This document shows positions 5,853 through 21,740 of a stretch of DNA of 64,000 bases, in pieces. Within the stretch, counting starts at the first letter, position 1. The number at the start of each line of letters is the position of its first letter. This DNA is from Varibaculum cambriense (GTDB lineage Bacteria > Actinomycetota > Actinomycetes > Actinomycetales > Actinomycetaceae). The stretch is from the NCBI RefSeq assembly GCF_022133705.1, contig NZ_JAKNHJ010000011.1:1-64000 (forward strand). Reading direction: 5' to 3'. The notes beneath the pieces were generated by a model that was given only the letters and a program-made list of their open reading frames with translations, was not told the origin of the DNA and did not search any database. Position numbers and translations under genes: made by a program.

Positions 5853-5959
5853 GTGCGGGGAAAATATTTTTCCTCCTGCCCAAAGTCTGGAAAATACAGA
5901 CGTATTTTCTCAGACTTTATGCCCACCGCGCCTACTCGGATAAAATATTTTCCCCGCAC
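5853..5959. repeat. Structured palindromic element, copy A
   Basis: An 18-bp perfect outer inverted repeat (5853-5870 with 5942-5959) encloses an inner hairpin (5882-5897 with 5902-5918, one bulged base, loop AGAC). The joining strands TCCTCCTGCCC and the 23-base block ending CTACTCGGAT are nearly identical to those of the copy at 21459-21566, whose outer stem has a different but equally complementary sequence. It starts 50 bases after xerD. Function unknown: a dispersed repeat, a structured RNA, or a terminator-like element. Confidence 0.85.
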
Positions 5960-6030
5960 AGGGGGTCACCGCACCTACTCGGATATAATCTGAGCCCCAT
6001 TTTTTCTGGTTCGTGCCTACTCGAAAAAAT
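5931..6030. repeat. Three right-end units of the palindromic element
   Basis: The word CCTACTCGGATAAAAT, the right joint of copy A, recurs in tandem as CCTACTCGGATATAAT (5974-5989) and CCTACTCGAAAAAAT (6016-6030), 42-43 bases apart. The third unit forms its own hairpin: ATTTTTTC (5999-6006) pairs with GAAAAAAT (6023-6030). They look like truncated or duplicated ends of the element. Confidence 0.65.
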
Positions 6031-13215: not shown

Positions 13216-13301
13216 TACCTCGAGTGGGACTCGAACCCACATGTCCGGTGAAGGACGGCGGATTTTGAATCCGCTGCGTCTACCAATTCCGCCATCGAGG
13301 C
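13216..13301 (-). tRNA. tRNA-Leu (anticodon CAA)
   Basis: Reading the minus strand gives a complete class II tRNA of 86 bases. The acceptor GCCTCGA pairs with TCGAGGT, the D arm is GGCGGAATTGG-type, and the anticodon stem GCGGA/TCCGC holds the loop TTCAAAA with anticodon CAA. The long variable arm is GTCC-TTCACC-GGAC and the T arm is GTGGG-TTCGAGT-CCCAC. The discriminator is A. CCA is not encoded. The first acceptor pair would be G-U rather than the usual G-C. Confidence 0.95.
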
Positions 13302-21458: not shown

Positions 21459-21566
21459 GGCGCGGGCAGAGGTTTTTCCTCTTGCCCAAAAACTCGGAAA
21501 AAGCCACGGCATTTTTTCGAGTTTTACGCCTGCCTAGCCGACTCGGATAAAACCTCTGCCCGCGCC
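21459..21566. repeat. Structured palindromic element, copy B
   Basis: An 18-bp perfect outer inverted repeat (21459-21476 with 21549-21566) encloses an inner imperfect hairpin (about 21489-21505 with 21509-21525). The 11-base left joint TCCTCTTGCCC and the 23-base right joint ending ACTCGGAT match copy A at 5853-5959, yet the outer stems differ at eight positions, each with its partner changed to keep pairing. Element length is 108 versus 107. Confidence 0.85.
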
Positions 21567-21620
21567 TCTTGGTATCTGCGCAAGGTGGCAAATAGTCTTT
21601 GGTTCCCTTGGTACTAGGTA

Positions 21621-21646
21621 TGGGCAGGCGGAAAAACCGTTGCCCA
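21621..21646. repeat. Truncated, inverted relative of the palindromic element
   Basis: On the minus strand this reads GGCAACGGTTTTTCCGCCTG, which follows the left end of copy B (GGCAGAGGTTTTTCCTCTTG). It also forms a small hairpin: TGGGCA and CGG pair with CCG and TGCCCA around AAAAA. Confidence 0.55.
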
Positions 21647-21740
21647 CGCCGGAATAAGTAACCGCGCCGCCGAAAAAGTAACAGATAATACTCTCCGGCT
21701 AACTGGACGAGTACCCCGGGGAGGCTGCTAGATTAGGCGG

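Follow-up and report, generated by a model that had tools for sequence, protein, structure and literature searches.

The palindromic elements seen at two places in a stretch of Varibaculum cambriense DNA are members of a non-coding dispersed repeat of about 108 bp, which is present in some 40-66 copies per genome and in which outer arms specific to each locus surround an exchangeable core made up of an asymmetric joint and an inner hairpin. The arms stay with their locus across species, and the cores, which are much alike between loci, are inverted or replaced at several of them.

Within the window (the whole stretch of 64,000 nucleotides that was analysed), the sequence-only reading had described copy A (5853-5959, 107 nt) and copy B (21459-21566, 108 nt) as built from outer arms, joints and an inner hairpin with eight differences in the arms, and the sequence bears this layout out. 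The outer arms are 18 nt long, perfectly complementary to each other in both copies, and differ between the copies at 8 of 18 positions; inside them lie a left joint of 11 nt, TCCTC[C/T]TGCCC, an inner hairpin of 37 nt in A and 38 nt in B, and a right joint of 23 nt (Table 1). That both start about 45-50 bases past a stop codon also proved correct, the distances being 50 nt for A, behind a gene for a XerD-like recombinase, and 44 nt for B, behind one for a CoaE-like kinase (names from a reading of the proteins). Compared by the XerD-like protein, the closest named genomes are Varibaculum cambriense (92%), a record under the name Tissierella sp. Marseille-P2918 (91%) and V. vaginae (90%). Folded as RNA, the plus strand gives -47.3 kcal/mol for A (z -10.3) and -55.9 for B (z -7.8), and the minus strand -51.1 kcal/mol for A (z -8.4) and -56.2 for B (z -6.0), with none of 200 shuffles equal in any case. 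Both copies have the remnant of a second element beside them. In V. vaginae the intergenic region of A holds a complete second element with the arms GGGGCTCAGATTTT/AAAATCTGAGCCCC, which the remnant arm at the A locus matches, and G003 has the complete form of the opposite-facing element behind B, of which the own genome retains a remnant. The element at locus B itself is intact in the own genome, G001, G004 and G005 and is present as a left half in G002 and G003.

Table 1. Parts of copies A and B, neighbouring remnants and further loci of the comparison (positions given without a locus handle are those of the window)
Feature	Position or locus	Strand	Basis
Copy A, left outer arm	5853-5870	+	Sequence; pairs with 5942-5959
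Copy A, left joint TCCTCCTGCCC, C-rich on +, G-rich on -	5871-5881	+	Joint conserved across the family
Copy A, inner hairpin	5882-5918	+	Family comparison, fold
Copy A, right joint, terminal letters CTACTCGGAT	5919-5941	+	Family comparison
Copy A, right outer arm	5942-5959	+	Perfect complement of 5853-5870
Right-end remnant of a second element near A	5967-6000	+	L063 versus window
Copy B, left outer arm	21459-21476	+	Sequence
Copy B, left joint TCCTCTTGCCC	21477-21487	+	Sequence, family comparison
Copy B, inner hairpin	21488-21525	+	Family comparison, fold
Copy B, right joint, type II core, terminal letters CGACTCGGAT	21526-21548	+	Family comparison
Copy B, right outer arm	21549-21566	+	Perfect complement of 21459-21476
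Remnant of a second, opposite-facing element behind B	21620-21650	-	L240 versus own and L251
Long variants	L195:10712-10877, L158:1691-1856, L221:1498-1669, L184:1715-1881		
Second palindromic family, examples	L142, L151, L155, L190, L214, L220		
pgi-like locus, comparison	L161, L246, L247, L252 versus L245, L243		

At E <= 10, a blastn search with A gave 57 matches in the own genome, a number that counts partial matches and one self match on the opposite strand. A covariance model built from 23 copies, a search of the kind that the sequence-only reading had proposed, reached 66 distinct places there down to E = 1.6e-6, counted as the ranks above the first opposite-strand match to an already listed place. 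Further covarying members thus exist, A and B are not the only copies, and a chance origin of their structure is excluded because the family is large. Five congeners have 43-61 matches each (E <= 0.01, stricter filters), a few of which may be both-strand matches to one place; the other 53 of the 59 relatives' genomes gave no match, the six that did all being Varibaculum. In the bacterial family, matches occur in 8 of 213 genomes, namely 6 Varibaculum and 2 of other genera with one copy each. These two extra-genus copies (L265:8001-8105 and L266:8001-8110) adjoin DNA alignable to Varibaculum loci, at 79.6% over 1653 bp in one case and 90.5% over 1217 bp in the other, which fits an import together with the flanks; independent transposition into the other genera was rejected, since both single copies align with Varibaculum DNA next to the element. 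One of them lies behind a YhgE/Pip-like gene and has arms identical to those of an own copy, and the other lies near a cupin-like gene and an apparent transposase start (gene names from reading). Plasmid and phage collections gave no match to one consensus-like copy, and viral contigs none to one 22-letter pattern; on these negatives, obtained with that one copy and one pattern, spread by plasmids or phages was rejected.

From the stretches studied we compiled 126 distinct places, 68 in the own genome and 58 in relatives, a few of them partial. Their cores fall into type I (ATGCCCACCGCACCCACTCGGAT with an AAGAATT-type hairpin), type II (ACGCCCGCCTAGCC...) and type III (GCCTCGCGCCCCG...). The arms consist of about 14 variable bp and TTTT/AAAA, and TTTT/AAAA and a G-rich foot are largely common to the copies. 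Four long variants of 166-172 nt have an extra conserved stretch around GATTTATAACCA..TATCCG, perhaps an additional folded domain, and no mobility gene was recognised by eye among the ORFs next to two of them. Half elements and a core-less hairpin remnant also occur, as do nested elements (L145/L189, L239). A second palindromic family of 16 copies has a near-constant core, CTCGGGGGACCCCGGTGAGCC...CAAGCCCCCTCTCGCATC, and arms that vary widely and are still mostly complementary. At a pgi-like locus one element of each family lies in a block of about 300 bp, which in G003 and G005 appears to be turned round as a unit compared with the other species.

The separation of arms and cores is evident both within and between genomes. 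Among own type I copies, compared in equal-length cores and by the left arm only (181 pairs), the cores are 90% identical and arm positions 5-12 only 55%, and even in the 12 pairs of this type whose cores reach 97% identity or more the arms are just 52% identical. Between species, 20 of the 25 relatives' loci, these being the highest-scoring ones, share flanks with an own element locus. Over 34 orthologous comparisons the mean identity is 0.94 for the arms, 0.92 for the core, 0.66 for the adjacent 80 bp and 0.84 for the surrounding DNA; the arms exceed the flanks in 34 of 34 comparisons and the surroundings in 29 of 32, figures that overstate the constraint because the comparison is limited to loci at which neither species has lost an arm (at locus B two of six species have just a left half). 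Within such kept arms the core has been inverted in L194 relative to L150 and L183 (G001 versus own and G005), L203 and L227 (G002, G003) being as in the own genome, and at a transporter locus the core is inverted in the own genome and G004 relative to G002 and G001, with the arms largely kept. At three loci the core type has been replaced inside kept arms (L159/L175, L164/L258, L161/L246), and in L169/L179 the inner hairpin has been replaced; in L151/L181 core type and inner arm have changed together.

The sequence-only reading had treated the arm differences between A and B as compensatory change and hence as a sign of selection on a folded structure. One part of this claim stands: in the alignment of the family 89% of the structure cells are paired and 28 of the 34 pairs have changed on both sides, mostly between paralogues, a level reached by none of 500 shuffles, and the arms are conserved far above the flanks where both survive. 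The score, 0.425 for the pairing as modelled, falls to at most 0.181 when the partner is slid by one column, with 7-19 pairs in the slid controls. The other part is unsupported in the form given, for A and B are paralogues that occupy different loci and whose arm differences are no record of compensatory substitution at one locus, and the plus strand has no preference for G-U. At 21 orthologous loci, comprising 378 pair positions, 48 positions vary, 42 of them on one side and 6 on both. This count omits L163, where a one-base shift inflates left-side changes, L026, with flipped cores and the own copy unparsed, and the unparsed L144 and L163c, and like the arm-conservation comparison it leaves out the flipped G001 copy at C13:2595. 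Four of the six both-sided changes are Watson-Crick throughout, two of these at a locus with a replaced core type; where the core type has stayed the same, two clean double changes remain, at locus B (GGCAC.../...GTGCC in G005) and at C13:2595. With 6 of 48 double-sided, there is therefore no direct sign of strong compensation or of frequent correction of one arm by the other.

The kinds of mispair add a strand bias. Read on the sense strand of the upstream gene, the outer pairs 5-16 of 103 copies (1236 cells) comprise 1063 Watson-Crick, 64 A-C, 28 G-T and 81 other cells, the 23 of 126 copies in which our pattern missed one or both joints having been dropped here and from the core and arm comparison. 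The inner hairpins of 72 of the 103 copies comprise 966 Watson-Crick, 13 A-C, 7 G-T and 22 other cells, at a pairing rate that is inflated because hairpins with fewer than 9 Watson-Crick pairs among the first 12 were excluded. Counted over distinct arm pairs, A-C exceeds G-T by 60 to 28, and the one-sided departures from Watson-Crick at the orthologous loci are A-C in 21 cases, G-T in 6 and other in 10 (A-C versus G-T p = 0.006). Thus G-U is not favoured on the gene-sense strand, and the reverse holds for the opposite strand; the A-C excess would fit a tolerance of G-U on the minus strand and is suggestive only, because the copies are related.

The explanation that we consider best, and to which we would commit ourselves about half way, is that the Varibaculum repeat is a MITE/REP-like palindromic repeat that is selected for its hairpin and reshaped by hairpin-driven recombination; its function and its mode of spread are here what we infer. 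Selection on the hairpin would act in the intergenic 3' regions, with the hairpin either folded as the tail of an mRNA or extruded from the DNA, and is suggested by the arms outlasting their flanks. The match between the arms would be kept partly by this selection and partly by occasional template switching from arm to arm, which would also flip the core and which makes matching arms possible without selection on RNA. Template switching fits two of the three processes, and the exchange of cores needs ectopic gene conversion, through which the cores would be homogenised between loci. Such conversion may have been started by nuclease cleavage of the extruded hairpin, and the cleavage of hairpins by SbcCD-type nucleases, as treated in PMC4245961 and PMC3315005, is a plausible start. 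Much of the spreading would be older than the split of the six species. Against this explanation, a strand-neutral DNA process does not predict the bias of A-C over G-T (21 to 6 and 60 to 28), the conservation of the arms is overstated and double-sided changes are few (6/48), and in L151/L181 core type and inner arm have changed together. Its main rivals are a classical transposon and a function at the level of RNA.

The first of these, that the element is an ordinary MITE, non-autonomous and moved whole with its arms by a transposase acting in trans, is in our judgement unlikely, even though the copies are many, dispersed, palindromic, nested and truncated, L162 and L186 differ by a different element beside a degraded old arm, and 5 of the 25 high-scoring relatives' loci are without clear shared flanks to an own element locus. 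MITEs carry a terminal repeat common to their copies. In the Varibaculum repeat, by contrast, the outer arms are locus-specific and the inside is shared: no common terminal inverted repeats were found, and unlike transposon ends the arms are no more alike when the cores are near-identical than otherwise (52% versus 55%). Direct matches of 2-4 letters at the ends do exceed those in shuffles (50 own copies), but they are the CG, CGC, CGCG and GCGC of the arm foot, where the boundary is unsharp, and no target-site duplication stands out beyond this CGCG foot. Nor did the PF01797 profile, the one used for this purpose, detect a Y1 transposase, and the 20 of 25 loci with shared flanks and the single extra-genus copies beside Varibaculum-like DNA speak the same way. 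No clean empty site was present in the loci examined, including two large stretches of the own genome and G002; element-free sites in relatives are rearranged or deletion-like, in relatives just 73-92% identical nearby. Recent movement, the alternative that the sequence-only reading had raised beside selection, is accordingly unsupported.

Rather improbable, too, is the second, under which the element would be under selection as a structured RNA, either a 3'-UTR or a small RNA, for the pairing of its stems. It could claim the covariation far beyond the shuffled and slid controls, the sense orientation behind stop codons, joint letters near-invariant in 69 type I copies, the extra conserved stretch of the long variants and the one-sided changes in favour of minus-strand G-U, 21 to 6. 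However, on the gene-sense strand A-C outnumbers G-U by 64 to 28 in the outer stem and by 13 to 7 in the inner hairpins, changes between orthologues are mostly one-sided, inversion reverses the core relative to the gene with the arms unmoved, and there is no Rfam match at threshold. At nine loci searched against Rfam at E <= 1, only mir-8521 fragments lay over an element, at 24-25 bits with a cut-off of 80. IMES-4 (RF02037), at L158:1687-1760 on the minus strand, was rejected, with 29.1 bits against a cut-off of 48 and over part of one long variant only. Elsewhere, L154:2107-2187 is a near miss of the Actino-pnp RNA (RF01688; 41.5 bits, cut-off 47.7, E 6.7e-06), perhaps a real leader, and the sole match of the window at gathering score is a tRNA gene at 13216-13301 on the minus strand. 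Matching arms alone are no proof of RNA function, because the middle flips and is exchanged while each locus keeps its own arms, and for the Varibaculum repeat the step from covariation to RNA function is unsafe.

We give little credence to a third reading, in which the cores would be structure-targeted cassettes that an enzyme inserts or exchanges, in either orientation, at the centre of a palindrome regardless of the sequence of that palindrome. It is kept in play because two unrelated core families, that of the 108-bp element and the CTCGGGGGACCCCGG family, sit in arms that differ and yet are complementary; the two also nest inside one another. A weaker idea concerns the joints, whose most constant letters are runs of G on the minus strand; between the two helices these runs could fold into a G-quadruplex of two layers. 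In type I there are three runs in the right joint of 69 of 69 copies and three in the left joint of 68 of 69, the joints of type II have such G-runs in 25 and 26 of 29 copies, and the left joint of type III has only 1-2 runs (5/5).

Divergent gaps seldom contain an element, and the copies tend to sit behind stop codons in the sense orientation. Of 111 copies, 53 lie in convergent gaps, 48 in tandem and 10 in divergent ones (30, 24 and 3 in the own genome alone), compared with 19, 53 and 23 in a background of 95 gaps of at least 150 bp; convergent versus divergent differs between copies and background with a Fisher p of 4e-5, a value that, like the other p-values of placement, is too small because orthologous copies are included. 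The 5' side of the element is the nearer one to the stop codon in 41 of the 53 convergent gaps (p = 8e-5), and 31 of the 48 tandem copies are sense to the gene (p = 0.06). Neighbouring elements at most 400 bp apart stand tail-to-tail in 26 of 36 pairs (for example L178, L180, L226, L148, L160, L167). These counts leave out 15 of the 126 copies with no flanking ORF on one side and take ORFs from coding-score calls, not from an annotation.

Such a location, behind stop codons and between convergent genes, is what would be expected of a transcription terminator of the preceding gene, a role that we nevertheless regard as very improbable. In its favour, a U-run hairpin lies between stop and element in just 11 of the 66 sense copies with at least 30 nt of room, at least 2 of these 11 being inner hairpins of a neighbouring element, and a consensus scan of the A gap gave four terminator-like sites (shuffles 0.7), one in the inner hairpin of A and one in the remnant at 5978-5994. 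The same scan of the B gap finds none, however, L146, L190 and L187 carry a U-run hairpin upstream of the element, and the transporter locus has a separate strong hairpin in the own genome, G001, G002, G004 and G005. Of 84 sense copies, 1 has a U-run after its right arm, and canonical terminators are similarly scarce at gene ends without elements (10/62) and with element motifs (6/20; p = 0.2); on these two results a canonical terminator was rejected. The weakest reading, a REP driven by a REP-associated tyrosine transposase (RAYT), is hardly credible: the elements are palindromic, intergenic and high in copy, with tail-to-tail pairs like BIMEs, but PF01797 was found in 0 of 6 Varibaculum genomes (E <= 0.01) by a search positive in 6 of 14 control genomes, which within the limits of that profile rules out the RAYT part, and an element of 108 bp with two stems is in size and consensus no palindrome of 20-40 bp with a GTAG or CGTC end tag.

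Covariation of stems is commonly taken to prove that an RNA is functional; the stems of the Varibaculum repeat covary strongly between copies, yet change mostly on one side at a locus followed across species. The repeat offers about 60 natural test sites per genome for setting RNA selection against mutagenesis by DNA hairpins, and for studying how a palindromic repeat can spread when no RAYT is present. The cassette reading, if true, would amount to a new kind of structure-directed exchange.

Among known systems, REPs are defined in PMC3733652 as palindromes of 20-40 bp that are tagged at one end by GTAG or CGTC. As that account describes them, REPs and BIMEs resemble the Varibaculum repeat in being high-copy intergenic palindromes, often paired, with a CGTC class that likewise occurs without a dedicated transposase; the Varibaculum repeat differs in its 108 bp and two stems, its asymmetric joint, its locus-variable arms, its inverted and exchanged core and the lack of a RAYT. 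The word Actinobacteria is absent from the main text of that paper on REP/BIME. The repeats RU-1, RU-2 and RU-3, as presented in PMC2229807 and PMC2759123, are similar in being of about 100-170 bp, dispersed and non-coding, and have been likened to MITEs. Polymerase template switching between inverted repeats, which according to PMC8604942 homogenises arms and inverts spacers, predicts two signs of the Varibaculum repeat, its matching arms and the inversion of its middle; in that account, however, it is known from inverted repeats in yeast genes and from no dispersed family, and it leaves the exchange of cores between loci unexplained. The stem-loop sequence families of PMC2267715 are alike in that repeats are grouped by a shared foldable stem-loop; the high-GC Gram-positives covered in the part of that work drawn on here are one Corynebacterium and two mycobacteria, and no such layout appears there. 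Intrastrand triplex repeats, in the description of PMC4666352, are many conserved, intergenic, G/C-rich motifs tied to genome instability; they differ in their motif, which has 37 nt and three stems, one C-rich and two G-rich, and the text drawn on does not name Varibaculum. The sequence-only reading knew of no described family with this layout, and neither Rfam at threshold nor the open-licence literature searched yielded a description of one. As far as these searches reach, then, the family is undescribed; it belongs to the known class of palindromic repeats of bacteria, as a variant whose unusual feature is the separation of arm and core.
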